A DNA stretch of 64,000 nt from Oxalicibacterium flavum (GTDB taxonomy: Bacteria; Pseudomonadota; Gammaproteobacteria; Burkholderiales; Burkholderiaceae_D). The DNA lies in assembly GCF_014635065.1 (NCBI RefSeq), contig NZ_BMCG01000001.1:682001-746000 (forward strand). Direction: 5' to 3'. The notes under the pieces are model-generated. The model was not told where the DNA came from and made no database searches. It was given only the letters and a program-made list of their open reading frames with translations. Below are positions 1 through 64,000 of the stretch, one piece after another (position 1 is the stretch's first letter; each line of letters opens with the position of its first letter). Both the position numbers and the translations under genes were made by a program.

Positions 1-531
1 CAATCCGAAGATCAGCGCCCACCCGATCAGATTGCGTGCCGGCGGATAGAGATTCGAGAAGGAACCGAGAAAGGCCGAGAAGAAGAAGGTACTCAGACTC
101 ATCAGAGTCACGAATGCCGGAACCACGGCCAGAACATCCCAACGCAACCTGAAATCAAATGCCACAAGCAGAATGAGAAAGGTCAGCAACGACGACACGA
201 TCCAGCCCAAGGCCCAGATCGACATCCTGCCCATGATTGCCGGTGCCAGATTGGCCGGTGCGATCACCAGCAGCGGGTAAGTCCCGTCATAGCGATCCCA
301 GGCCGCTGCCGCAATTGCCCACGAGCCCATGCCGGCCGTCGCTGCGTTGCCGATCAGGAGGTAGTAGAGAATCTCTTCCGAACCGAGCAGGCGTCCGACC
401 AGAACCCATATCAATACACTGGTCAGGATGCGCAGCATCCATCCGCCAAGCCAGATCTTTCAGGTCCAGAACACGGAAAAATCGCGCGCCCCGACCAGCA
501 ACCCATAGCGAAACACGCGCAAGGCTTTCAT
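1..531 (-). pseudogene. ABC-2 type permease, interrupted by in-frame TGA (3' end off window)
   Basis: The reading frame starts at ATG 531 (MKALRVFRYGLL...) and meets a TGA at 460-462 after 23 codons. The same frame then stays open to the window edge and encodes hydrophobic permease-like sequence (for example IWLGGWMLRILT, LLGSEEILYYLLIGNAATAG). The residue expected after the FWT motif would be Trp, so the change looks like TGG to TGA. The start overlaps the stop of the upstream permease gene by the ATGA at 528-531, as in a translationally coupled permease pair. It could be a true nonsense mutation or a base-call error. Selenocysteine is unlikely in a permease. No ATPase partner is visible in the window. 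Confidence 0.75.
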
Positions 532-1298
532 GTCAGCCCCAATCTGCCGTTTTGTCTGAGTTGATCGAGCATGCGATTCATCGTCACCGCGCCCAGCACT
601 GCCGATACGCAGCCGATGAGAATCAGCATGCCGACCTGAAAGACAGCATCCACCGGCTCGGCGGCCGCAAAAGACAAGCGCACAATCTCGGCAGACCAGT
701 AAAAGAAGAACAGTGGCGACAATACCTGCAACCATGCCGGCAAGAACGCAATGGGAACCAGCACACCGCTCATCAGATAGAACGGTCCATAGACGGCGTT
801 CTGTATCGTGCGCGTCTGCCGCGCGAGGCTGAACAACGCAGCCGTCAAAACGGCCGTTCCCGCTCCAGCAAAGGCAGTGGCCAGAAGTGCAAATGCGAGA
901 GTCGCAGGATGATGGACTTCAATCGATATGTCGAAGACAAGCTTTGCCAGCAGCCACGCTTCGAAAAAACCCGCCAGTCCAAGAAAGGAAACGACAAATG
1001 CGCGTGAAGCGAGAATGACCGGATACGATGCAGGCGTGGCCACCAACAGTTCAAGCCGCTGATGACTGCGATCGTTCGATACGATTTCGCTCGATACTGC
1101 GAAGCACATCTGACCGATGGAAAACAGCAACGCCGCCGTCAATGCATAACTCGCGAGATCGGCCCGATTGGAAGCAATGAAGATGGCAAGAGCCGGCAAG
1201 ACCTGCAACGGCATCGCGAGTACGGGTGTCAGAACGCCCCAGTCTCGAACCGACAATTTGAACTGAGTCTGCAACGTAACCAGCACAAGCCTGAACAT
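528..1298 (-). CDS. ABC-2 family transporter permease
   Basis: A 256-residue integral membrane protein with about six hydrophobic segments (LTPVLAMPLQVLPALAIFIAS near the N-terminus, FYLMSGVLVPIAFLPAWL near residue 190, VGMLILIGCVSAVLGAV near 230). The layout fits the membrane subunit of an ABC-2 exporter; the substrate cannot be read from sequence. It is followed with a 4-base overlap by a second, broken permease, so the pair probably formed one heterodimeric exporter. The ATPase gene is not in the 457 bases upstream, where the AT-rich island begins; it may lie off the left edge or have been lost. If the partner is really dead, this gene may no longer be functional. Confidence 0.7.
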   Translation of the reverse strand: MFRLVLVTLQTQFKLSVRDWGVLTPVLAMPLQVLPALAIFIASNRADLASYALTAALLFSIGQMCFAVSSEIVSNDRSHQRLELLVATPASYPVILASRAFVVSFLGLAGFFEAWLLAKLVFDISIEVHHPATLAFALLATAFAGAGTAVLTAALFSLARQTRTIQNAVYGPFYLMSGVLVPIAFLPAWLQVLSPLFFFYWSAEIVRLSFAAAEPVDAVFQVGMLILIGCVSAVLGAVTMNRMLDQLRQNGRLGLT

Positions 1299-1755
1299 GG
1301 CGGCAATCTATTTCGCGAAGCCATCTAGAGTAGCTTTCTGCCTTGCTGCAAGCAAACAAGAAATAATGCTGACGATATACGCAGGATTGCTTTAGGGAGG
1401 ACCAGGTATCACGTAAGGTAAACAGGATTTTTCGTAATCCCACTCGCAATGAAAAGCAGTGAGCATGGGAGTTACCCTGTTATGAATGGTGGAAATAATA
1501 ATGCTGTTAAATCGAATCGAGTCAGTCATTTTGTTTGTGTATTACTTCCAACGTCGGAAATTGAAGCGGGGCTACGTCTAGAATATTTATCTCATATTTA
1601 TGGGATACCGTCATTCCCCCGGATTCAGGCCTAATGCTCAGTTGCAATAACTTCATAGTTTAGAGCATTAATAGAAATGCACCCTGAGGTTGCGCCATAA
1701 CTATCTCGCGGTATCGATCTAGCCCAAAACGAAAATAGTAGAGTGAGCCGCCATA
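1299..1755. other. Intergenic region at the left boundary of the DRT3 island
   Basis: No convincing gene is seen. The stretch becomes AT-rich from about 1340 and should carry promoters for the leftward permease genes and for the rightward RT operon. A 61-codon open frame at 1449-1634 has no ribosome site or recognisable features and is not annotated. No ACACAC-type motif is present here, unlike the region downstream of the RT genes. No mobile-element ends or tRNA fragment could be identified. Confidence 0.5.
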
Positions 1756-3102
1756 ATGCTTGATCAAATGTTCACTACGGAAAATTTCCGTCGCATTTAT
1801 GATTCTGAGAATCGCAAGGGTATCGACTTAGCTACCCGCTATTTCCCCACGCTTGAGCCGCTTACATCCGCCGTGCGCGACAAGGTTCAGGAAATTCGTA
1901 ACTTACGGAAAATCGAAGTCTCCCTAAAGGCTGATGAGTTTGATGCAAAGCTGCTTACGCTGAAAGCGGAACTAACGAGCTTAAAAGCAACCAAGTCATC
2001 TGCAATTGATTCTTTATTGGATGGTATAAGTCAAAAAGTACTCAAGCAGAGCTTCAAAATTGGGCTTTCCCAGAAAATTGGCCCAAAAGGAAAGCCTGTT
2101 TTTTGTATCGATGCCGAGCCTGAAACTTTTTTTGTCATCAAACAACTCCAAAGCAATATCCATCGCATATATGGTGTAAAACAAGCGAACCGTCACGACT
2201 TGGTTTGCCAGCTTCGCGATACATTAGGAAGCAAGTTTCCTTTCGAACTTGTGCGCACCGATATCGCCTCATTTTATGAAAATATTGATCGTGAGCGTTT
2301 AGTTGAAAAAATTGATCGCGATCAGTTATTAAGTCCAGCATCAAAGAAGTATGTCAAACAAATTCTCAATTCCTACGGTGCACTTTCCGGCTCCACAACT
2401 GGGATTCCCAGAGGGGTTGGCATCAGCGCTTATTTGGCGGAACTGTATCTAAGGCGGATTGACAACTCGATCAGAAAAATCGCTGGCCTAGTCTTGTATT
2501 GTCGGTTTGTTGATGACATCGTAGCCGTCTTCGCACGACCGCCAATCGGTAAGGACTTAGGGTCGTATAAAGATCTGATTATCAAGATCTTGAACGATGA
2601 GGGACTCACACACAACACAGCTAAGACAAGGGAGCTCAAACTGGCCGATAGCAGCCCGAAGAAGTTCGAGTATCTAGGTTATCGTTTTCATCTCACGCCC
2701 GCTGGGATTGCGCTTAGCCCTAGCGCAGCGAAGGTAGTGAAATATGATGAGCGGATGAGTACAACTTTCGCGGAGTATTGGCGAGAACGCCCCGTCAATC
2801 CCAAGGGCGCATATAGAAAATTAGTCGCCCGAATAAAATTTTTGACGGGTAACACACGGCTCTCTAATAGTAAGTCATCCGCTGTCACCGGCATTTACTT
2901 CAATAATTCAATTGTGACTGACTTAACTAGTTTCAAGCGTCTTGATAGACGCCTAAAAATACGTATTGCAGAACTCAAGCGAAGCAGCCTACAAAAGCAA
3001 CTGAAACGCTTGAGTTTCACAACGGGTTTTGAGCAACGTCGATATCATAATTTCAGCACTAGAGAACTTCAGATGATCGTAAAGGCATGGAAACATGGCT
3101 AA
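1756..3102 (+). CDS. drt3a: Defence-associated reverse transcriptase, probable Drt3a
   Basis: A 448-residue protein with reverse transcriptase palm motifs: VRTDIASFYENI (motif A, Asp169), GIPRG at 216-220 (motif B region), FVDD at 251-254 in place of YxDD (catalytic aspartates), and KKFEYLGYRF near 303-312. The first 120 residues are a helical, non-RT extension. There is no maturase, integrase or endonuclease domain and no flanking intron or retron structure. It overlaps the next RT gene by 8 bases; two adjacent RT genes of about 450 and 690 codons is the arrangement of DRT type 3 (UG3 plus UG8) anti-phage systems. Base composition is clearly more AT-rich than the chromosomal neighbours, which suggests transfer. 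RT activity is firm; the DRT3 class is an inference from gene pairing and size. Confidence 0.82.
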   Translation: MLDQMFTTENFRRIYDSENRKGIDLATRYFPTLEPLTSAVRDKVQEIRNLRKIEVSLKADEFDAKLLTLKAELTSLKATKSSAIDSLLDGISQKVLKQSFKIGLSQKIGPKGKPVFCIDAEPETFFVIKQLQSNIHRIYGVKQANRHDLVCQLRDTLGSKFPFELVRTDIASFYENIDRERLVEKIDRDQLLSPASKKYVKQILNSYGALSGSTTGIPRGVGISAYLAELYLRRIDNSIRKIAGLVLYCRFVDDIVAVFARPPIGKDLGSYKDLIIKILNDEGLTHNTAKTRELKLADSSPKKFEYLGYRFHLTPAGIALSPSAAKVVKYDERMSTTFAEYWRERPVNPKGAYRKLVARIKFLTGNTRLSNSKSSAVTGIYFNNSIVTDLTSFKRLDRRLKIRIAELKRSSLQKQLKRLSFTTGFEQRRYHNFSTRELQMIVKAWKHG

Positions 3103-5167
3103 GCGGCGGGTCTCTCTCACTCATAGAAAACAACGATCCGTATTAACGGACATGCTGCCTTTCGAGGTACCTCCGACATTTTCGAATCGTGGTTACTATC
3201 GCTTTTTAAGAAACAATGGCGTGGAAATCGAAAAGGGCAAGTTGCACTGGAATTGTGAAACGAGTGCTCTTGATGAAACAATGCGTCTACTATTCGGCAT
3301 TAAATCTGGCACCCCAATTTCCACCGATGTCGTAATTGAATGGGGCAAGAAGAGAGAACGCCGCTCCGTACCTCTTCGCAGATGCGAGATGGCAACCATT
3401 CCGTTCAATTTCCGTGTCGCTCACAATCTCGATGGGCGCACGCTAAGTGTTGTGCATCCTCGCAATCAGGTAGAAGTTGCGAGCTTCTATGCGACTCACA
3501 GCGCACTGATCATTTATCACACCTCCGCCAGTGAGTTTTCCATACGTCGGCCTGTATCAGTTTCGCGCTATGTCTACTTCAAGGATAGGCTTCACGACGA
3601 GCGCATGGATGCTGCTACTGGCGTGGAAGAGGAAGATCGTGAGTACGAGCAAATCGGTTCCTATTTCGTTTACCGTAAGTATCGGAATATTCATCGTTTT
3701 TTTGAATCGCACGAGTATCATCGTAGCGAGAAAAAATACGATGCTTTGGTTCAGATTGATGTAAACAAATGCTTTGACAGCATCTACACACACTCACTTC
3801 CCTGGGCAATTTTGGGAAAAGATCAGACGAAGTTCGGTCTGGAGGAATCGAAAAATACTTTTGCTGGGCGATTCGATGCGCTTATGCAAAATCTAAACCA
3901 TAAGGAAACCAACGGTATCGTTATTGGACCAGAATTTTCTCGAATTTTCGCCGAAATTATTTTGCAATCTGTCGACGCTGAACTCCTTCAAAAATTGGCC
4001 GATAGAGATAATCTGATTCATAAAGTCGATTATGAGATTTTCCGGTACGTAGATGATTTCTTTGTTTTCTATAATATGGAAACCACCCAGTTAAAGATCT
4101 TCGAGACTCTTCAAGAAATCCTCAAGTCCAAAAAACTGAGTATCAACACAGCGAAAATTAAGCACTACCAAAAGCCGATCATCACCGAGATTACGATCGC
4201 CAAAGAGCGCATCTCAAGTCTTTTGAATGAAGAGATCGATCCGGTGTGTGAGGAGGAGGCTTCAACCGCCCCACCTACTCCTCCTAAACAACATCTTGTT
4301 TGCGTTATAAACGCGAATCGATTGATTGTCAGGTACAAATCCGCACTTAAGGAGTCCAACGTAACCTATGGCGATTTACTGAATTACACTTTCGCTATAG
4401 TTGAAAGTAGAATTGAAAAGCTGTTCAAAGCATATATTTCGAGCGATAAATCAGATCGTGACCGTAAGCGCCTTTCTAACGCCTTGCTCGCGATCATGGA
4501 ATTTGCTTTTTTCGCGTATTCGGCAAGTCCAAAGATCAATCACACAATCCGGCTCTGTCGGATGATTACTATCTCTGTAAACTTTCTTCATGCTCAGGTA
4601 ATGCCTTATGAGCTGAAGCACTTGCTGTTTAAGTACGTCCACGATAACGTCATGCAGCAGCTCGAAAAAACGACGATGAGTATTCATCGAGAAGTGGAGA
4701 GCCTCTATCTTCTTATTTGTCTTTCGCAAATAGGTCGAGAATACTGGCTTCCCGAATCGGTCCTCCTCCGTCATTTCTTAATCAAAACGGAAGCCAGCAC
4801 TGGAGAGTATGTTCGTCCTGTTGGCTTCATGAGCCACTTCTCGATCACAATACTACTGTCCTATATCAAGGGAAAAGTTCGTTATACCAAGTTGAAAACA
4901 TTTGTTGAAACACACCTCGTCGCCAAAACCGAGTACATGAAGGCTCACTGTCCCGATGATGCTGAGACCCTAATCATGTTGCTCGATCTCATTGTTTGCC
5001 CTTACATCACGGCCGAAACTAAAGAAGAAATCGGAAAGATTTTTGGTCTAGATACAGTTAGCCTTGCATCTGTTCAGTCGTCTAATGATCAATGGTTTAC
5101 GGCTTGGGGCGATAAATTCAACCTTGGGAAAGAGCTAGACGCGAAGCGCAGTCGCGAGGTATATTAG
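3095..5167 (+). CDS. drt3b: Defence-associated reverse transcriptase, probable Drt3b
   Basis: A 690-residue protein with an RT core: VQIDVNKCFDSIY (motif A, Asp222), IVIGPEFSRIFAEIIL near 275-290 (motif B region), and FRYVDDFFVF with catalytic YVDD at 318-321. About 200 residues precede the palm domain and about 340 follow it; the C-terminal part is mostly helical, without a domain I can name. The ATG lies inside the end of the upstream RT gene, so the two are probably translated together. As I recall recent work on DRT3, one RT copies an ACACAC template in a non-coding RNA to give poly(GT), while the partner makes the complementary poly(AC) strand. Which protein does which is not shown by this sequence. 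An AT-rich foreign-looking gene. Confidence 0.8.
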   Translation: MAKRRVSLTHRKQRSVLTDMLPFEVPPTFSNRGYYRFLRNNGVEIEKGKLHWNCETSALDETMRLLFGIKSGTPISTDVVIEWGKKRERRSVPLRRCEMATIPFNFRVAHNLDGRTLSVVHPRNQVEVASFYATHSALIIYHTSASEFSIRRPVSVSRYVYFKDRLHDERMDAATGVEEEDREYEQIGSYFVYRKYRNIHRFFESHEYHRSEKKYDALVQIDVNKCFDSIYTHSLPWAILGKDQTKFGLEESKNTFAGRFDALMQNLNHKETNGIVIGPEFSRIFAEIILQSVDAELLQKLADRDNLIHKVDYEIFRYVDDFFVFYNMETTQLKIFETLQEILKSKKLSINTAKIKHYQKPIITEITIAKERISSLLNEEIDPVCEEEASTAPPTPPKQHLVCVINANRLIVRYKSALKESNVTYGDLLNYTFAIVESRIEKLFKAYISSDKSDRDRKRLSNALLAIMEFAFFAYSASPKINHTIRLCRMITISVNFLHAQVMPYELKHLLFKYVHDNVMQQLEKTTMSIHREVESLYLLICLSQIGREYWLPESVLLRHFLIKTEASTGEYVRPVGFMSHFSITILLSYIKGKVRYTKLKTFVETHLVAKTEYMKAHCPDDAETLIMLLDLIVCPYITAETKEEIGKIFGLDTVSLASVQSSNDQWFTAWGDKFNLGKELDAKRSREVY

Positions 5168-5333
5168 CCTCGGCGCTCCGCTTTACCCTTAATGGCTGTT
5201 GGCAGCCCACACACAAGCGCCCACTCTTCTCCTATATCAATTGGGGGTTGAGTAATCAGACGGTAGGAGCGGGCCGTCTTTCTTCCTGATGTGACTAGAA
5301 TGTAAAAAAGCCCTGCAATGCAGGGCTTTTTTT
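5168..5333 (+). ncRNA. Candidate DRT3-associated non-coding RNA with ACACACA segment
   Basis: The region directly after the second RT gene has no open frame but has structure. A perfect 5-bp hairpin (GGCTG, TTGG, CAGCC; 5194-5207) is followed after one base by ACACACA at 5209-5215. A 6-bp stem AGACGG/CCGTCT (5258-5263 with 5274-5279) follows. CGCTCC at 5174-5179 can pair with GGAGCG at 5266-5271, which would close a large loop around the ACACACA; this competes partly with the previous stem. A strong Rho-independent terminator at 5304-5333 would define the 3' end. The 5' end is unknown and could lie within the RT gene. The match to the ACACAC template expected for DRT3 is the main argument; the RNA itself is inferred. 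Confidence 0.55.
5304..5333. terminator. Bidirectional Rho-independent terminator
   Basis: An 8-bp perfect stem AGCCCTGC/GCAGGGCT (5309-5316 with 5320-5327, 3-nt loop) is flanked by a run of A on the left and a run of seven T on the right. It can end the RT operon on the plus strand and gyrB transcription on the minus strand. Confidence 0.88.
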
Positions 5334-5406
5334 ATCACCGTCTAAGAAGTTGCTCAAATACTGAGAAAAAGTTCATGTATTTTGAGAACCTACATAGTTT
5401 CTAAAT

Positions 5407-8292
<2,886 letters not shown>

Positions 8293-52893: not shown

Positions 52894-52908
52894 GCAATCG
52901 ATGTGCCA
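52894..52908 (-). promoter_or_regulatory. Sigma-54 promoter of the OFA transporter
   Basis: On the minus strand the sequence reads TGGCAC, five bases, TTGC, a full match to the -24/-12 sigma-54 consensus. It lies 115 bases before the transporter ATG. The neighbouring NtrC-type regulator is the natural activator. Confidence 0.85.
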
Positions 52909-52970: not shown

Positions 52971-53012
52971 GGCGGGACAAATTGACGCGAACGACGGACA
53001 AAATGTCCCGCC
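52971..53012. promoter_or_regulatory. Inverted repeat, candidate activator site for the NtrC-type regulator
   Basis: GGCGGGACA (52971-52979) and TGTCCCGCC (53004-53012) form 9-bp perfect arms, with an inner palindrome GGACA AAA TGTCC at 52996-53008. The distance of about 60-120 bases upstream of the sigma-54 motif is typical of enhancer sites. Confidence 0.55.
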
Positions 53013-53066: not shown

Positions 53067-53095
53067 TTCGCTATGTAGTTCAAATATATAACGCT
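53067..53095. promoter_or_regulatory. ModE (molybdate) operator-like box 1
   Basis: TTCGCTATGTA, 7 bases, TATATAACGCT. Against the Mo-box consensus ATCGCTATATA-N6/7-TATATAACGAT this matches 19 of 22 positions. It lies immediately before a possible -10 (TATACT), a position suited to repression. Confidence 0.7.
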
Positions 53096-53116
53096 TATAC
53101 TCTCGCCTTTTCGCCA

Positions 53117-53144
53117 ATCGCTATTGCCTTTTGGATATAGCGAT
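53117..53144. promoter_or_regulatory. ModE (molybdate) operator-like box 2
   Basis: ATCGCTATTGC, 6 bases, GATATAGCGAT. The outer arms ATCGCTAT and ATAGCGAT are perfectly inverted. It matches the Mo-box consensus at 17 of 22 positions and lies 36 bases before the TonB receptor ATG. Confidence 0.68.
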
Positions 53145-53179: not shown

Positions 53180-55189
53180 ATGAAGAACACGCTGTCCCGC
53201 ACCGCCATTGCCGCATCGCTGATGCTGGCATTCGGTGCCGTCCATGCCGCCGAGTCGGAATCCAACGTCTTCACGCTGGGAGAAATCCAGGTTGCCGGCA
53301 GCAACAACGCCGTGCCTGCCACCGGCGGCACCAAGGTCACGCGCGAGGACCTCGACGACTTCAACCGCGAAACCGTGGTCGATGCGCTCAATCTGATGTC
53401 CGGCATCACCACCACTGGCGGCGGACAGCGCAACGAACGCATGGTCTATGTGCGCGGCTTCGACAGCCGGCAGGTGCCGGTCTTCATCGACGGCATTCCC
53501 GTCTACATTCCCTATGACGGCAACGTCGATCTGGCGCGCTTCACGACCTACGACCTCGCATCGATCGAAGTCGCCAAGGGCTTCAGTTCGGTACTGTACG
53601 GCTCCAACACCATTGGCGGCGCCATCAATCTGGTGACGCGACGTCCGGTCAAGGCCTTCGAAGGCAACGTCGGCGTCGGCGTGCGCAGCAACGACAAGTT
53701 CGACGGCAATGGCACCAGCACCCACGTCAATCTCGGCACCAACCAGGGCATGTGGTATGCGCAGCTTGGCCTGTCGTATCTGGACCGCGACAGCTACACC
53801 CTGTCGCGCGATTTCATTCCCGTACCCGATCAACCGGACAGGGAACGTCGCAATACCTACAACACGGACAAGAAGATCAATATCAAGGTCGGCCTGACGC
53901 CCAACGCGACCGATGAATACTCGATCAATTACATCAACCAGAAAGGCGAGAAAGGCAGCGCTCCTTATGCAGGCACAGAGAATGTCACCGCCCGCTACTG
54001 GCAATGGCCGGCATGGGACAAGGAAAGTCTCTACTTCATTTCCAACACGGCCATTGGAGATGTCTCCTATCTCAAGGTCCGCGCCTACTACGACAAGTTC
54101 AAGAATCGCCTGAGCTCCTTCGACGATGCGACCTATTCGACCGTAACCAAAGGCTATGCATTTCACAGCTTCTACGACGACCATACCTATGGCGGTAGCG
54201 TGGAATACGGCACCAAACTGTCGGACGCGAATACGCTGAAAGTCGCCCTGCATCTGAAAGAAGACGTTCACAAGGAACACAACCTGGGTGAACCGGAGCA
54301 GCGCTCCGAAGACCGTACGACGTCCATCAGCATCGAGGACACCCATCGCCTGACGGAAAAGCTCGACCTGATCGTGGGCGCCAGCTACGACAAGCGCAAG
54401 GAAAAAGGCGCTCAGAAGTACGACAAGACCCGCGGCCTGTACGACTTCCCGGTGAAGGATTCGTCCGCATTCAATCCGCAGGCCGGGTTGATCTATCACA
54501 CGTCGGAAACCGGCAACGCGTATTTCACCATCGCCCGCAAATCGCGCTTCCCAACCATCAAGCAACGCTACTCCGGCGGGCTGGGAACGGCGATTCCCAA
54601 TCCCGATCTCAACGTCGAGCGTGCCGTCAACTATCAGTTGGGCTTCTCCGAAAAACTGAACCCGAAAGTTCGTGTCGATGCCGCGATCTTCTACAGCGAC
54701 ATCACCGACATGATGCAATCGAATGAAGTGCCGGGAACGGTTTGCGACAAGGGAAATCTCTGCACCCAGATGCAGAACGTGGGCAAGGTCTCGAGCAAGG
54801 GCATCGAGCTTGGCGTCACTGCAGCCGTTACCAATACGCTGGAACTCGGCGGCAACTACACCTATCTCGACCGGAAGAACAAGTCCGATTCGAAATTCCT
54901 GACCGATGTGCCCGCGCACAAGCTGTTCACCTACGCCAGATGGGCAGCCACGCCGAGCCTGAACGTCATCGGCAATGCGGAATACAACTCCAAGCGTTAC
55001 ACCAACGACAGCGGCACGCGCATCGCGGGCGCCTACACGCTGGTCAACGCAAAACTCAGCTACACGCTGCAGAAAGATGTGACGCTGGAAGCCGGCGTCA
55101 ACAATCTGTTTGACCGCAATTACGCCTATACCGAAGGCTATTATGAAGAAGGCCGCAACTTCTTCGCCAACCTGAACTACCGCTTCTAG
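53180..55189 (+). CDS. TonB-dependent outer-membrane receptor
   Basis: A 669-residue receptor: signal peptide MKNTLSRTAIAASLMLAFGAVHA, plug domain with EDLDDFNRETVVDALNLMSG, YVRGFDSRQVPVFIDGIPV and LYGSNTIGGAINLVTRRP, then a 22-strand-type barrel ending in the outer-membrane signature FFANLNYRF. Such receptors bring metal chelates or other large solutes across the outer membrane with TonB energy. No Fur box was found, but two ModE-type boxes precede it, so the substrate may be molybdate or a molybdenum chelate. First gene of a three-gene operon; the next start is 13 bases away. Confidence 0.93.
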   Translation: MKNTLSRTAIAASLMLAFGAVHAAESESNVFTLGEIQVAGSNNAVPATGGTKVTREDLDDFNRETVVDALNLMSGITTTGGGQRNERMVYVRGFDSRQVPVFIDGIPVYIPYDGNVDLARFTTYDLASIEVAKGFSSVLYGSNTIGGAINLVTRRPVKAFEGNVGVGVRSNDKFDGNGTSTHVNLGTNQGMWYAQLGLSYLDRDSYTLSRDFIPVPDQPDRERRNTYNTDKKINIKVGLTPNATDEYSINYINQKGEKGSAPYAGTENVTARYWQWPAWDKESLYFISNTAIGDVSYLKVRAYYDKFKNRLSSFDDATYSTVTKGYAFHSFYDDHTYGGSVEYGTKLSDANTLKVALHLKEDVHKEHNLGEPEQRSEDRTTSISIEDTHRLTEKLDLIVGASYDKRKEKGAQKYDKTRGLYDFPVKDSSAFNPQAGLIYHTSETGNAYFTIARKSRFPTIKQRYSGGLGTAIPNPDLNVERAVNYQLGFSEKLNPKVRVDAAIFYSDITDMMQSNEVPGTVCDKGNLCTQMQNVGKVSSKGIELGVTAAVTNTLELGGNYTYLDRKNKSDSKFLTDVPAHKLFTYARWAATPSLNVIGNAEYNSKRYTNDSGTRIAGAYTLVNAKLSYTLQKDVTLEAGVNNLFDRNYAYTEGYYEEGRNFFANLNYRF

Positions 55190-55202
55190 GCAGGAACGCT
55201 TC

Positions 55203-56558
55203 ATGATTCGCGCACCGCATTCTCTTCATCGACGGCTTGTTTCCTTTCTCTCCGCAGCAGCACTGGCGTTATGCGCGCTGCATGCCGCAGCGGCGGAGAC
55301 GACGACCCGCAAGGTCGTCGTCATGACCAGCTATCCTGAAGAAGTGGTGTCGCGTTTCGAAGCGGCGTTCGAAAAAGCGCATCCAGGCATGCGCGTGGAA
55401 ATCAACTGGCGCCGCTCGGGCGATGCGACGACCTGGCTGCAGAACAATCCGGGCCATACCGACGTGTATTGGACGCCCGCGCAGCGCGGCTTTGCGATGC
55501 TCGCCAGGAGTGGCGCATTCAAGCCGCTGCCGGTCGACATGACGGGCCTGCCCAACAAGGTCGGAGGCTTTCCGATCTCCGATCCCGACCTGCTTTACGT
55601 CGCCACCGAGATCGCCGGCTTCGGCTTTGCCGTCAACACGCAACGCCTGCAGGACAAACATCTGCCGCTGCCCGCGCAGTGGACCGACCTGACCGATCCA
55701 CGCTGGCAGGACGAACTGATTTTTCCGGTGCCGAGCAAGGTCGGCTTCGCACCGCCGCTGATCGAAATCCTGGCGCAGGGCTATGGCTGGGAGACAGGCT
55801 GGGCGCTGCTGCAGCGTATCGCCAGCAACGCGCAGCTGCTGGGCGAAGGCGGTCCCGGTATTGCAGAGGAAGTCGCCAGCGGCCGTGCCGGCCTTGGCGT
55901 CTCCATCGATTTCTTCATCAATTCGGCCATCGCCAACGGTGCGCCGATCTCCTTTATCCATCCGGGCGTGACCGGCTATTCGCCAGCACACGTCGCCGTG
56001 TTCAAGGACGCGCCCAATCCCGAAGGCGCACAGGCCTTCGCACAGTATGTGCTTTCCGAAGAAGGACAGAAAATCCTGTTCCATCCCGATATCCGCAAGC
56101 TGCCGGTGCGGCCCTCGGTCTATGCCGACAGGCCGGCCGGCTACTACGATCCGTTCGCAGCAGCCAAGGCCATGCCCTTCACCTTCGACACCGAGCGCGC
56201 CCTGCGACGCCAGGGCGTGAACAATGCGCTGTTCGATGTCATGGTGACCGAACAGCATGAACGCCTGCGCGATACGCTGGCGGCACTGGCCAAGGCGGAG
56301 CAGGCAGCCGGCAGCAACCACGCCCTGCAGGCAAAACTCGACCGCGCACGCAAACTGGTCACGCAGTTGCCGATCAACGAAAAGCAGGCCGACGATCTGG
56401 CCGGACGCTTCGTTTCAAATTTCGAGATCGATGCCACGCCGGACGCCAATGCCACCCTGCTGCGCGCCTGGTCCGACAAGGTCACCGCCAATCGCCGGCA
56501 AGCCGTGGAAATTGCCCGGCAGGTGATCGCCGCAACCCAAGGGAGAAGCAGCCGTTGA
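55203..56558 (+). CDS. Periplasmic substrate-binding protein, ABC type (family 1 / iron-like)
   Basis: A 451-residue secreted protein with a signal peptide (LVSFLSAAALALCALHAAAA). The fold pattern of extracellular solute-binding proteins is seen: KVVVMTSYPEEVVSRFEAAF, INWRRSGDATTWLQ, GFGFAVNTQRL, WTDLTDPRWQDELIFPVPSK and FVQYVLSEEGQKI-like AQYVLSEEGQKILF. After about residue 340 it has an extra helical tail of about 110 residues that ordinary Fe(III)-binding proteins lack. No ABC permease or ATPase gene is adjacent. It is between the TonB receptor and the di-heme protein and should bind the cargo in the periplasm. Cargo unknown; the ModE boxes point to molybdenum. Confidence 0.85.
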   Translation: MIRAPHSLHRRLVSFLSAAALALCALHAAAAETTTRKVVVMTSYPEEVVSRFEAAFEKAHPGMRVEINWRRSGDATTWLQNNPGHTDVYWTPAQRGFAMLARSGAFKPLPVDMTGLPNKVGGFPISDPDLLYVATEIAGFGFAVNTQRLQDKHLPLPAQWTDLTDPRWQDELIFPVPSKVGFAPPLIEILAQGYGWETGWALLQRIASNAQLLGEGGPGIAEEVASGRAGLGVSIDFFINSAIANGAPISFIHPGVTGYSPAHVAVFKDAPNPEGAQAFAQYVLSEEGQKILFHPDIRKLPVRPSVYADRPAGYYDPFAAAKAMPFTFDTERALRRQGVNNALFDVMVTEQHERLRDTLAALAKAEQAAGSNHALQAKLDRARKLVTQLPINEKQADDLAGRFVSNFEIDATPDANATLLRAWSDKVTANRRQAVEIARQVIAATQGRSSR

Positions 56559-57943
56559 AATGGCGACGCCCGATCGCGAGCCTGCTTGCCGCGATTGCCA
56601 TGCTGGGCCTGAGCGGCGCCGATTCGACTGACACGCGCCTCCTGAGCGCCGGTAGCTCAACGGTGTTCGACAGCACGCGCAACGCGTACTCGCTGCCGAG
56701 TCCGGCCATGGACGAGGACAACGCCAACGCCTTCGCGCGCGGGCGCACGATGTTTCGACAATCATGGGTGATCGCGCCGGCCAATGACCGCGCGGCCGGA
56801 CTGGGACCACTGTTCAACCGCATCTCGTGCATCGCCTGCCATGCGCGCAACGGCAAGGGTCAGGCGCCCGAAGGACCAAATGGCACCATGCAGGCCATGC
56901 TGCTGCGCCTGAGCGTGCCCGGCATCAATGCGCACGGCGGACCGAAGCCGCACCCGGCCTACGGCGACCAGTTCAACGAGCGCGGCATCCCCGGCGTGCC
57001 CGGCGAAGGCATCGGCTACCTGCTGTACGAGGAACATGTCGAAACCTTTGCCGACGGCACGCAACTGATGCTGCGCAAGCCCTCGGTGCATTTCAAGGAA
57101 CTCGCTTACGGCGCGCTCGGCGACGACATCATGGTCTCGCCGCGCATTGGTCCCGCCGTCTATGGCCTCGGTCTGCTCGAGGCGATTTCCGACGAGACCC
57201 TGCTCGCCTTGCAGGCGCAATCCAAACCCGATGGCATACGCGGCCGCGTCAACATCGTGTGGGACACCATCGATCGGAAGGAATCGATCGGCCGCTTCGG
57301 CATGAAGGCCAACGTGGCGACATTGACGGAGCAGGTGGCAAACGCCTTCAACGGCGACCTCGGCATCACCACGCCCGCCACGCCGCATGAGAACTGTACT
57401 GCCGTGCAGACCGCGTGCCAGAAGGCGCCGTCCGGTCACGCCTCCGAATTCGAGCCAACCGAACTGTCGCAGGGCGATCTGTTCGCCACAGTCTTCTATC
57501 ACCGCACGCTGGCCGTTCCGGCGCGGCGCGACGTCGACGACCGCCAGGTCCTGCGCGGAGAGCAGCTCTTCGCCCAGGCGCGCTGCACGAGCTGCCACAT
57601 TCCGGAACTGCGCACGCGCAAGGATGCTGTGCTGCCGTCGCTGTCCAACCAGTTGATCCGTCCCTACACCGACCTGCTGCTGCACGACATGGGAGAGGAA
57701 CTGGCCGACGGTCGTCCCGACTATCGCGCCAGCGGCCGCGAATGGCGCACGCCGCCGCTGTGGGGCATCGGCCTCGCGCAAAAGGTCAATCCGGATGCCG
57801 GTTTCCTGCACGACGGCCGCGCCCGCACGCTGCTCGAAGCCGTGATGTGGCATGGCGGCGAAGCGGCCGTCTCGCGCGAGGCAGTGCGCGCCATGTCGGT
57901 CGAGGACCGGGCGGCGCTGGTGCGGTTTCTGGAATCGCTGTGA
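56555..57943 (+). CDS. Di-heme cytochrome-c-type oxidoreductase (DUF1111)
   Basis: A 462-residue exported protein with a short signal segment (IASLLAAIAMLGLSGA) and two heme-c sites, CIACH near residue 91 and CTSCH near 345. The pattern (GLGPLFNRISCIACHARNGKG, RGEQLFAQARCTSCHIPEL, HDGRARTLLEAVMWHGGEA) is that of the DUF1111 di-heme family, related to cytochrome c peroxidases and sometimes called thiol oxidoreductases. The start is TTG 56555, overlapping the TGA of the binding-protein gene, with AGGGAGA upstream. It may do redox chemistry on the metal or chelate taken up by the first two proteins; this is inference. Confidence 0.87.
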   Translation: MKWRRPIASLLAAIAMLGLSGADSTDTRLLSAGSSTVFDSTRNAYSLPSPAMDEDNANAFARGRTMFRQSWVIAPANDRAAGLGPLFNRISCIACHARNGKGQAPEGPNGTMQAMLLRLSVPGINAHGGPKPHPAYGDQFNERGIPGVPGEGIGYLLYEEHVETFADGTQLMLRKPSVHFKELAYGALGDDIMVSPRIGPAVYGLGLLEAISDETLLALQAQSKPDGIRGRVNIVWDTIDRKESIGRFGMKANVATLTEQVANAFNGDLGITTPATPHENCTAVQTACQKAPSGHASEFEPTELSQGDLFATVFYHRTLAVPARRDVDDRQVLRGEQLFAQARCTSCHIPELRTRKDAVLPSLSNQLIRPYTDLLLHDMGEELADGRPDYRASGREWRTPPLWGIGLAQKVNPDAGFLHDGRARTLLEAVMWHGGEAAVSREAVRAMSVEDRAALVRFLESL

Positions 57944-58388: not shown

Positions 58389-58667
58389 TCAGAACACCAG
58401 ACGTTCGTCCGGATGCTGCAATGCCGAACGCAGATGCTCGCCCGAGCGACGAATGGCATCGTCGATGGCGAACTTCACCACGCGCAGCGCCTTCCTTTCC
58501 GCCTCGTAGGCGGAAGGCGCGCTACCTTCGACCACGCCCTGGATGGGCTCCGGATTGTCCGTCTGCCAGATGCGATAGGCGCCGTTCCACTCGCCAAAGG
58601 CGAAGCCCCACGTCTGTTCCAGCGCGGATACTGAAATCCGGTATCCCTTGTATTCGATCAAGGACAC
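58389..58667 (-). CDS. Small conserved protein, paralogue of the gene at 42132; probably Mo-regulated
   Basis: A 92-residue protein, MSLIEYKGYRISVSALEQTW with GVVEGSAPSAYEAERKALRV and VKFAIDDAIRR. It resembles the protein at 42132-42398 (IEYK.YRI, EG.AP, VK.AID, DER.VF end). The start is GTG 58667, chosen because GAGGAGGAAT precedes it. A ModE-type box is 56-83 bases upstream, so this copy, unlike its paralogue, may respond to molybdate. Function unknown. Confidence 0.75.
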   Translation of the reverse strand: MSLIEYKGYRISVSALEQTWGFAFGEWNGAYRIWQTDNPEPIQGVVEGSAPSAYEAERKALRVVKFAIDDAIRRSGEHLRSALQHPDERLVF

Positions 58668-58722: not shown

Positions 58723-58750
58723 ACCGTTATTCAAATAAAGATATAACGAT
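58723..58750. promoter_or_regulatory. ModE (molybdate) operator-like box upstream of the gene at 58389
   Basis: ACCGTTATTCA, 6 bases, GATATAACGAT. The right half matches the TATATAACGAT half-site at 10 of 11; the left matches its inverse at 8 of 11. It lies between the small gene (leftward) and the terminator of the ModE-like gene. Confidence 0.6.
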
Positions 58751-58820: not shown

Positions 58821-59240
58821 TCAGGCCTTGGACGGTTTCGCTGATTTTCCCCCGGCCTGTTCGGCGTCGCTCCGGTCGGCCAGCAGTTTGCTGAAAACGG
58901 AAAAGTCGCTGACGATGGCCTCAGCCGCCTTGCGTTCCATGGCGCGGTAATGCTCGACCACACCGCGGCCGAAATCGGTGACGATCGCACCGCCGCCGCC
59001 GGCGCCGCCGGTGGCTGTCACTACCAATGGCTCGATGAAGGCGGCGTTGGTGGATTCGATCAGCAGCCATGCGCGCCGGTAGGACATCTTCATCTCGCGG
59101 CCGGCGGCCGAGATCGAGCCGGTGCGCGCGATCGCGTCGATCAGGTCGGCGCGGCCCGGTCCCATGGCGGTCATCTCGCCCATCAGGATGCGGACGCGCG
59201 GAACGCGGCGGACAGGCGGGCGGGGCGGTTTCTTGGGCAT
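58821..59240 (-). CDS. ModE-like winged-helix regulator, DNA-binding domain only
   Basis: A 139-residue protein with the ModE/LysR-type helix-turn-helix of molybdate regulators: LIDAIARTGSISAAGREMKM then SYRRAWLLIESTNAAF, and the Gly-rich GGAGGGGAIVTDFGRGVVEHYR. The molybdate-binding Mop domains present in the full-length protein at 62700 are absent, so it cannot sense molybdate in the usual way. It may be an apo-type regulator or a competitor at ModE sites. ATG 59240 has GGAAGA upstream. Single gene with its own terminator. Confidence 0.86.
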   Translation of the reverse strand: MPKKPPRPPVRRVPRVRILMGEMTAMGPGRADLIDAIARTGSISAAGREMKMSYRRAWLLIESTNAAFIEPLVVTATGGAGGGGAIVTDFGRGVVEHYRAMERKAAEAIVSDFSVFSKLLADRSDAEQAGGKSAKPSKA

Positions 59241-59477
59241 GGCGATCTTCCGGTAAGCGAGGCATCTATTTTCGCCTACTTTCCGTCCGGGAAAAAGCCG
59301 TGCGCAATCCGCCAGGTGCCTCGCGCACCAGTCGTACCGACGCCGACCTGCAGGCCTGCACCTCGCTTTCCTTGGTGTGATGCCAGAGCGGCACCAGCGG
59401 AGGATTGAGTTCGGGGAAATAACCAACCATCAATCGTCATGTGCACCGCGTCGATGCACACACGATCGCTCGGCGTG

Positions 59478-60124: not shown

Positions 60125-61333
60125 TTACTGTTTGACGGCCTTGAACTTGGCTGCTTCTTCCGAACCGCCGGTGGCGTTACCGTCGCTGTAGGAGTGAGCA
60201 CCCACGCCTGCCAGCTTGCCGCCCTGGACGATCAGGTATTCGTCGCGGATCGGACGACCTTCGAAGTAGCACTCGAGGATCTCGCGGGTACCTGCTGCGT
60301 AACGCGCTTGCGCGGTCAGGCTGGTGCCGGAGATGTGCGGGGTCATGCCGTGGTGCGGCATGGTGCGCCATGGGTGATCGGCCGGTGCCGGTTGCGGGAA
60401 CCAGACGTCGCCTGCGTAGCCGGCCAGCTGACCGCTTTCGAGTGCGCGCACGATGGCATCACGGTCACACAGCTTGCCGCGTGCGGTGTTGATGATGTAC
60501 GAACCACGCTTGAAGTATTTCAGCGTTTCGTCGTTGATCATGTGTTCGGTTTCCGGGTGCAGCGGGCAGTTCAGCGTGACCACATCGACAGCGGAAGCAA
60601 GGCTCTTCAGCGTGCTGTGATAGGTCAGGTTCAGTTCCTTCTCGACCGATTCAGGCAGACGGTGACGATCCATGTAGTGCAGCTTGACGTCGAAAGGCTT
60701 CAGCAGGCGCAGCACGCGCAGGCCGATACGGCCGGCAGCGACGGTACCGACACTCATCGCTTCCAGATCGTAGGAACGCGAGACGCAGTCGGCGATGTTC
60801 CAGCCGCCCTTGACGACCCAGTTGTACGACGGGATGTAGTTACGCACCTGCGACAGGATCATCATCACGACGTGCTCGGCCACCGAGTGGCTGTTGCAGT
60901 AGGTGACTTCGGCGACGGTGATGTTGTGCTTGTTGGCGGCTTGCAGATCGGTGTGATCGGAACCGATGCCGGCCGTCACGATCATCTTCAGCTTCTTGGC
61001 GCGGGCGATACGCTCGGCCGTCATGTAGGCAGGCCAGAACGGTTGCGAGATGATGATCTCGGCGTCAACCAGTTCCTTGTCCAGCACACTGTCGGCGCCG
61101 TCCTTGCTCGAGGTCACGACCAGCGTGTGGCCGTTCGATTCGAGGTATTTGCGCAGGCCGAGTTCGCCCGACACGCTGCCCAGCAAGTGACCAGGCGTGA
61201 AGTCGATGGCCTTGGGCGTCGGCAGGGTCTGACCATCAGGATAGATGGAAGGTTGCGCAACTTCGTCGCGCGCGTAGGTTTTTGGGTAACCGGTAACGGG
61301 ATCGTCGTACAGGACGCAAAGGACTTTAGCCAT
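60125..61333 (-). CDS. fdh: NAD-dependent formate dehydrogenase (metal-free type)
   Basis: A 402-residue cytoplasmic enzyme (formate plus NAD+ to CO2 plus NADH) of the D-hydroxyacid dehydrogenase superfamily. The typical features are QPFWPAYMTAERI, NAD loop VGTVAAGRIGLRVL, TLNCPLHPETEHMIN, INTARGKLCDRD with the catalytic Arg, and MTPHISGTSL with the catalytic His. Length and motifs match the methylotroph enzyme. It needs no molybdenum, unlike the other formate dehydrogenases, so it may cover formate use when molybdate is short. A LysR regulator lies upstream. Ribosome site GGAGAAG. Confidence 0.95.
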   Translation of the reverse strand: MAKVLCVLYDDPVTGYPKTYARDEVAQPSIYPDGQTLPTPKAIDFTPGHLLGSVSGELGLRKYLESNGHTLVVTSSKDGADSVLDKELVDAEIIISQPFWPAYMTAERIARAKKLKMIVTAGIGSDHTDLQAANKHNITVAEVTYCNSHSVAEHVVMMILSQVRNYIPSYNWVVKGGWNIADCVSRSYDLEAMSVGTVAAGRIGLRVLRLLKPFDVKLHYMDRHRLPESVEKELNLTYHSTLKSLASAVDVVTLNCPLHPETEHMINDETLKYFKRGSYIINTARGKLCDRDAIVRALESGQLAGYAGDVWFPQPAPADHPWRTMPHHGMTPHISGTSLTAQARYAAGTREILECYFEGRPIRDEYLIVQGGKLAGVGAHSYSDGNATGGSEEAAKFKAVKQ

Positions 61334-62594: not shown

Positions 62595-62619
62595 CGATAT
62601 GTCGTTTAAAGTTATATCG
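62595..62619. promoter_or_regulatory. Inverted repeat upstream of modE
   Basis: CGATAT (62595-62600) and ATATCG (62614-62619) are inverted with 13 bases between, in the AT-rich leader 81 bases before the modE start. It is only loosely like a Mo-box (shorter arms), so autoregulation by ModE is possible but not shown. Confidence 0.35.
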
Positions 62620-62629
62620 TGTATCATAG

Positions 62630-64000
<1,371 letters not shown>

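Follow-up and report, generated by a model that had tools for sequence, protein, structure and literature searches.

We analysed a 64,000-nucleotide stretch of the Oxalicibacterium flavum genome, here called the window, which represents bases 682001-746000 of contig 1 in a genome of 3.2 Mb. The locus of interest is a plus-strand operon (53180-57943) of three genes, which code for a TonB-dependent outer-membrane receptor (53180-55189, 669 aa), a periplasmic solute-binding protein (SBP; 55203-56558, 451 aa), and a di-heme oxidoreductase of the DHOR/DUF1111 type (56555-57943, 462 aa), the last overlapping the SBP stop codon. These assignments, made previously in a sequence-only reading of the window, held when the proteins were scanned against Pfam: the receptor matched plug and beta-barrel families, the SBP matched SBP_bac_6, and DHOR matched PF06537 with an E-value of 6e-95. 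No permease gene is present in the operon of the window. The AlphaFold model of the receptor (mean pLDDT 85.2) has a fold like those of PirA, the copper receptor OprC, Cir and catecholate receptors, a resemblance that does not identify the cargo. Residues 31-39 of the receptor contain a partly conserved FxLGEIxVT segment, which by eye may be a TonB-box-like segment. The DHOR sequences contain two CxxCH heme motifs in 19/19 aligned cases; note that L059, and for DHOR a fragment from L058, were omitted from the SBP and DHOR alignments where they were truncated.

The AlphaFold model of the SBP (mean pLDDT 91.5) confirms the unusual helical tail that had been proposed for this protein, with helices over residues 337-450 forming a C-terminal tail of approximately 110 residues. 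A search with six SBP tails for a known domain yielded Pfam matches only below the curated scores. The nearest solved folds were those of the glucose-6-phosphate binder VcA0625, AfuA, and the PLP binder P5PA, followed by ferric-binding proteins of the FbpA types, and the Y195A and Y196A mutants of FbpA were named among the matches. Tyr195 and Tyr196 are the iron-ligand pair of Haemophilus FbpA. Upon alignment to Haemophilus FbpA, these positions correspond to F237 and F238 of the SBP, with Phe found in 23/23 sequences at the first and in 22/23 at the second; the FbpA-type tyrosine pair is absent from the SBP.

The leader of the receptor gene had been reported to contain two Mo-boxes. As a yardstick for such sites we used the ModE consensus CGNTATATA-N6/7-TATATANCG, with 16 specified positions, which we take to be that of the E. 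coli literature. Both boxes are present with the correct N7 and N6 spacing: Mo-box 1 (53069-53093) reads CGCTATGTA-N7-TATATAACG and matches 15 of the 16 positions, and Mo-box 2 (53119-53142) reads CGCTATTGC-N6-GATATAGCG and matches 12 of the 16. A -10-like hexamer, TATACT (53096-53101, plus strand), follows the end of Mo-box 1 after a gap of 2 bases and is kept in an alignment of four genus members, and is not accompanied by a recognisable -35. Since a strict sigma-70 scan gave no promoter at the receptor gene and no canonical -35, the receptor promoter is a predicted one. With respect to this promoter, box 1 sits immediately before the -10 and box 2 would lie downstream of the transcription start, a layout that would suit repression. 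As in ModE regulons, Mo-boxes are found where the operon has its predicted promoter. No known RNA family was found at gathering score between 47000 and 64000.

Box 1 is the best match to the ModE consensus, with either N6 or N7 spacing, in the 3.2-Mb genome. With the N7 pattern it was the sole site in the whole genome at two or fewer mismatches (it has one), and with the N6 pattern the minimum was three mismatches, found at two loci, one of which (58725-58748) adjoins a second ModE-family gene described below. As an independent measure we used a sequence model (R2) trained on 15 sites of other genera, these being N6 sites; R2 was preferred over a second model, R1, which included sites from the window and was thus circular. 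Across the genome, R2 reported two sites at E≤10, 58723-58750 (E 0.077) and 53117-53143 (E 0.71), the latter being box 2; box 1 was not reported by this model. We reject chance as the source of the boxes on the basis of the genome-wide rank of box 1, conservation in relatives, and the R2 model. We also searched the leader with a 19-mer that we take to represent the Fur consensus. The best match had 8 mismatches (P 0.69 in shuffles), in agreement with the previous statement that no Fur box is found there.

The minus strand downstream of the operon codes for a 92-aa open reading frame (58389-58667), a short regulator here called modE2 (58821-59426), an HPP protein, an NAD-dependent formate dehydrogenase of the 2-hydroxyacid dehydrogenase type (60125-61333), and a LysR regulator; these are followed on the plus strand by modE (62703-63494), which codes for an HTH domain and two TOBE/Mop stretches. 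The modE2 product is a ModE-family regulator with the HTH only and no TOBE/Mop match (TIGR00637, E 6e-22). Its score of 77.5 bits is below the curated TIGR00637 cut-off of 98.5, as is the score of the full-length ModE of the window. Mo-box 3 (58725-58748, N6) lies between modE2 and the 92-aa frame, and a box is found at the same place in the loci L032 and L033. Mo-box 4 (62595-62619, N7) precedes modE and is probably autoregulatory. The start of modA was placed by eye at approximately 63536, with the gene running past the window end; the sequence-only reading had put modE and modA 9.5 kb away from the boxes. Partly or wholly beyond the window, the order after modE was read by eye as modA, modB, modC, a regulator, fdsG and fdsB, and modB was confirmed by TIGR02141. 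We presume the fdsG/fdsB formate dehydrogenase to be molybdenum-dependent. The regulator between modC and fdsG (L038:3051-4163, minus strand) has a ModE/LysR-type HTH together with a domain like those of periplasmic binding proteins. The 92-aa frame lies behind the best R2 Mo-box of the genome. There are three matches to it in the O. flavum genome and several relatives within the genus; it belongs to no Pfam family and shows no clear tie to molybdenum.

We examined the occurrence of the operon in other bacteria. A scan of one genome per species across 84,980 species yielded 21 loci; a hit had to contain either of two peptide patterns derived from the SBP alignment, so that diverged relatives would be missed. 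These came from Oxalicibacterium, Herminiimonas, Sideroxydans, Gallionella, Gallionellaceae, Methylophilaceae, Methylobacillus, Methylophilus, Thiobacillus, Parasulfuritortus, Azoarcus, and a Burkholderiaceae MAG, all of which we take to be Betaproteobacteria; the closest relatives among the retrieved loci were one Oxalicibacterium MAG and two Herminiimonas genomes. A receptor match preceded the SBP in 21/21 loci (partial in L055) and DHOR followed it in 19/21, the other two (L049 and L052) ending at a contig edge. Recurrence of the module in many betaproteobacteria goes beyond what the sequence-only reading had proposed. In a sample of 145 genomes of the family, an SBP match was found in four of eight genus members, all four with the whole operon; the absence from the other four indicates that the operon is not essential for molybdenum nutrition and counts against the molybdenum reading. 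A class-wide search detected the SBP at E≤1e-45 in 10 of 369 genomes: the genome of the window, two with a receptor (L070 and L071), and seven without a receptor. L071 has neither a Mo-box nor DHOR. SBP paralogues with 31-34% identity (L072-L078 and L035-L037) lack a receptor match and Mo-boxes, and those of L072-L074 are found near ModB- or ModC-like genes. In Methylobacillus gramineus (L059:7905-8965) the SBP and DHOR genes look truncated, and the receptor is full-length and has a Mo-box with 2 mismatches.

Conservation of the boxes at orthologous loci, the point on which the sequence-only reading had proposed to be judged, was found. Of 23 loci, 14 had a box at four or fewer mismatches within the 370 bases preceding the receptor, compared to 0.73 expected from dinucleotide shuffles; these 23 loci include close relatives and so are not independent, and L055 was excluded because its receptor start is missing. 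Boxes at this threshold were found in 0/43 upstream regions of SBP and DHOR from the same loci and in 0/11 upstream regions of the receptor-less paralogous SBPs. The shuffles represent the fairer control because most of the sequence upstream of SBP and DHOR is itself coding. Within the genus, the position of box 1 is kept in four members with 1-5 mismatches (4-5 in L031, L032 and L033), followed by TATACT. An N7 box before modE was found in 4/4 genus genomes, with TGTAT after it in three of them and TGTAG in the fourth, and the same four genomes have an N7 box before the receptor; the receptor promoter thus resembles the modE promoter in its layout. Box 2 has 4 mismatches in the window and in L039 (L031 in the genus alignment) and is degenerate, with 6 mismatches, in two of the four genus members (L040 and L041; L032 and L033 in that alignment), which counts against it. 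Paired boxes with 4-5 mismatches, at positions similar to those of the genus pairs, were found in the Methylophilus loci L054, L056 and L057. The sites with 5 mismatches in five loci (L041, L045, L057, L058 and L070) do not individually reach significance. Also counting against conservation, the best sites have only 7-8 mismatches in L049, L051 and L071 and directly before the second receptor of L043; the loci L049 and L051 have a G+C content of 71-73%, and ModE is present in both genomes.

The genes adjoining the operon in related loci were surveyed by listing 114 flanking ORFs and identifying 18 chosen proteins by Pfam scan. The modE-modABC genes are divergent from the operon in three Gallionellaceae loci (L042, L044 and L047), and in L045 the upstream region contains fdsGB, a short modE, and modABC-like genes. 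DHOR is followed directly by a porin gene in L042, by a SulP permease gene in L046, and by a TonB gene in L044, and ABC-importer genes are found upstream in the Azoarcus loci L052 and L053. In the part of the flanks surveyed, we recognised no genes for chelator biosynthesis. A ModE HTH match at E≤1.1e-24 was found in 21/22 of the other receptor genomes, 8 of the 22 scoring above the curated cut-off. The one exception is genome G476, the source of L071, where the best match is 2.4e-8 in a 367-aa frame and where box and DHOR are also lacking. ModB scored above cut-off in 23/23 receptor genomes, yet it also did so in 8/14 control genomes, so that its presence proves little. Two porin genes in these loci have boxes of their own: one in a Gallionella MAG (L047:10674-12056) has two Mo-boxes upstream, and a Porin_O_P gene, of the phosphate-selective type (L056:3883-5633), has one, whereas a porin gene of this type in L054 has none. 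The locus L043 contains a double module behind one Mo-box, in which a box with 2 mismatches is followed by receptor, SBP, DHOR, TonB, receptor, SBP and DHOR; the upstream module, at 30-5927 with the TonB gene, is a second and divergent one, and the double module has its own energy transducer.

The regulatory link of the operon to molybdenum is strong, and from the sequence features ModE-family proteins very probably control it. Molybdenum accounts better than iron for the content of the operon, for its divergence from modE-modABC in three loci, for the ModE HTH match in 21/22 of the other receptor genomes, and for Phe where FbpA has its tyrosine pair. Based on the computed boxes and their conservation, the composition of the operon, its linkage to mod genes, and the lack of both Fur-site enrichment and the tyrosine pair, we consider it likely that this is a TonB-dependent operon, repressed by ModE-family proteins, for the acquisition of molybdenum as molybdate or a molybdenum chelate; we infer the binding and repression by ModE, the cargo, and the roles of the SBP and DHOR. 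The previously proposed active transport of molybdenum across the outer membrane under predicted ModE control is thus supported. According to this model, ModE-family repressors would keep the operon off when molybdate is plentiful, and the operon would be turned on when molybdenum is short. With energy from TonB, the receptor would bring molybdate or a chelate of molybdenum into the periplasm, where the SBP would capture the cargo and the di-heme DHOR may help to free the metal by redox chemistry. Molybdate could then enter the cell through ModABC or another inner-membrane permease. A chelate would be the more likely cargo, because the receptor is accompanied by a second SBP in addition to ModA and by a redox enzyme.

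ModE-type switches between molybdenum and molybdenum-free enzymes are known for nitrogenases, and control by molybdenum could serve the import of a different substrate (iron, copper, tungsten or an organic cofactor) that the cell requires once molybdenum-free enzymes replace the molybdenum enzymes. The NAD-dependent formate dehydrogenase between modE2 and modE (60125-61333) would be an example of such a replacement, and the receptor and SBP folds are common to iron and copper systems. However, the region upstream of this formate dehydrogenase has no box at five or fewer mismatches, and the enzyme was matched only in L041 among the 21 loci, within flanks of 8 kb or less. In addition, the operon adjoins modE-modABC, porin or SulP permease genes in several loci, and the SBP lacks the FbpA tyrosine pair. 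We regard import of another cargo as unlikely, although tungsten is a possible one, and import of molybdenum as the better reading of the same control.

The presence of two ModE paralogues raises the question of which one acts at the boxes. Six Methylobacillus and Methylophilus genomes with the operon have strong ModE matches only in open frames of 116-152 aa. Sideroxydans, Gallionella and the Gallionellaceae MAG have a strong ModE match only in a long open frame, from which the boxed operon diverges. TATG half-sites made up 9/10 of those in the long-ModE-only genomes versus 1/20 in the short-ModE-only genomes, a comparison that involves a small sample of sites picked after inspection and is confounded by phylogeny, since the short-ModE-only genomes are, as we take it, all Methylophilaceae. 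This measure assigns box 1 and the modE box to the long type and boxes 2 and 3 to the other, TATT/TATA type; two sites with one TATG half each depart from the pattern, namely box 2 in L039 and, in L040, the site next to the 92-aa frame. The boxes might serve only the HTH-only ModE2, with a signal that is not necessarily molybdate, the operon answering another cue. The six genomes with short ModE frames, and the lack in boxes 2 and 3 of the TATG half-sites typical of the full-length-only genomes, are consistent with this. Such an explanation is opposed by box 1 and the modE box, both of which are N7 with a TATG half in the genus, and by the boxed operons divergent from a long modE, and we find it quite improbable.

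Returning to control by molybdenum, the sequences suggest that perhaps one box serves full-length ModE and the other the short ModE2; that the HTH-only second ModE may be involved also goes beyond the sequence-only reading. A more elaborate version of the molybdenum model, which we put forward as a tentative possibility, is that the receptor, SBP and DHOR constitute a self-contained TonB-dependent molybdophore system whose promoter is shared by two ModE paralogues. The receptor would import a molybdenum chelate, the tailed SBP would hold it, and DHOR would strip the metal by redox chemistry for ModABC. Of the two boxes, the TATG-type one adjacent to the -10 would be used by full-length ModE, and the TATT/TATA-type one after the start by ModE2, which has the HTH only; one paralogue would sense molybdate directly and the other would add a second input of molybdenum status.

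The operon could also be an ordinary ferric-chelate uptake operon with Mo-boxes by chance, as the gene names alone suggest and as would fit a DUF1111 gene that occurs, in P. aeruginosa, in an imelysin operon regulated by Fur (PMC3143127), but this is very improbable given 14/23 boxed loci against 0.73 expected, the agreement of the independent R2 model, Fur-like sites at six or fewer mismatches in 2/23 receptor loci against 1.06 expected, and Phe at the iron-ligand positions. The Fur-like sites are not enriched, although the 6-mismatch match in L070, taken alone, has a P of 0.01 and counts against the molybdenum reading. We rejected an iron-uptake identity of the operon on the basis of the Fur-site count, the Phe residues, and the gene context. 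In PMC3143127, other relatives of DHOR are linked to iron uptake; that paper assigns EfeB to DUF1111 and puts IcmP (PA4370) and the EfeB homologue PA4371 in one operon under Fur control.

Passage of molybdate across the outer membrane is usually regarded as passive, by way of porins. To our knowledge, ModE regulons contain no TonB-dependent receptor. Among the matches listed in searches of the open literature, none described a ModE-controlled TonB receptor, and none treated a ModE regulon together with TonB. The operon is like a ModE regulon with ModABC in its Mo-box operators, in a ModE with two TOBE/Mop stretches, in the adjoining modABC, and in the N7 box before both modE and the receptor, but differs in adding an outer-membrane receptor, an extra tailed SBP, and a di-heme protein. 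A dedicated outer-membrane step for molybdate has been proposed for the T6SS-ModA-IcmP system of P. aeruginosa (Wang et al. 2021, as cited in the available parts of PMC8602904 and PMC11734730), which also resembles the present case in the DUF1111-type protein PA4371 beside IcmP. In contrast, IcmP is imelysin-like and its operon is described as Fur-regulated, and a TonB-dependent receptor or Mo-box is not described there in those parts. The IcmP/PA4371 operon is an intriguing but unproven link between DUF1111-type proteins and molybdate.

Molybdophore uptake in Azotobacter is similar in that complexed molybdenum is scavenged when molybdenum is low, but the accessible portions of PMC3440940 and PMC3627308 name no ModE-controlled receptor for it, and chelator biosynthesis genes, as noted above, were not recognised in the surveyed flanks of the operon. 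The receptor shares its fold with OprC, which imports copper (TM 0.73-0.79 on query length), and shares with MnoT, for manganese, the active import of a scarce metal across the outer membrane (PMC8602904, in the part available); it differs from both in its regulator and in its linked SBP and DHOR, and has only 14-16% identity to OprC. Similarly, the SBP has the two-lobed periplasmic binding fold of AfuA/VcA0625, the P5PA binders and FbpA, but differs from these in its extra helical tail, in the missing tyrosine pair, and in belonging to an operon with a TonB receptor and no permease gene. If the proposed role is correct, some freshwater, iron-oxidising and methylotrophic bacteria spend energy on the import of molybdenum across the outer membrane, and molybdenum limitation, formate oxidation and nitrogen metabolism would be tied to one testable gene set. 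Receptors of this kind would also be spared annotation as iron siderophore receptors.

A final observation concerns the gene divergent from the receptor, which codes for an MFS transporter with the L-lactate MFS transporter as its best NCBIfam match. A promoter common to this gene and the receptor is unlikely, as the MFS gene has its own sigma-54-like site and inverted repeat. The sigma-54-like site, TGGCAC-N5-TTGC (52894-52908, minus strand), was found by eye and is probably for the MFS gene; a conserved 14-nt inverted repeat at 52971-53012 probably serves the same gene, and an NtrC-type regulator gene is found nearby.
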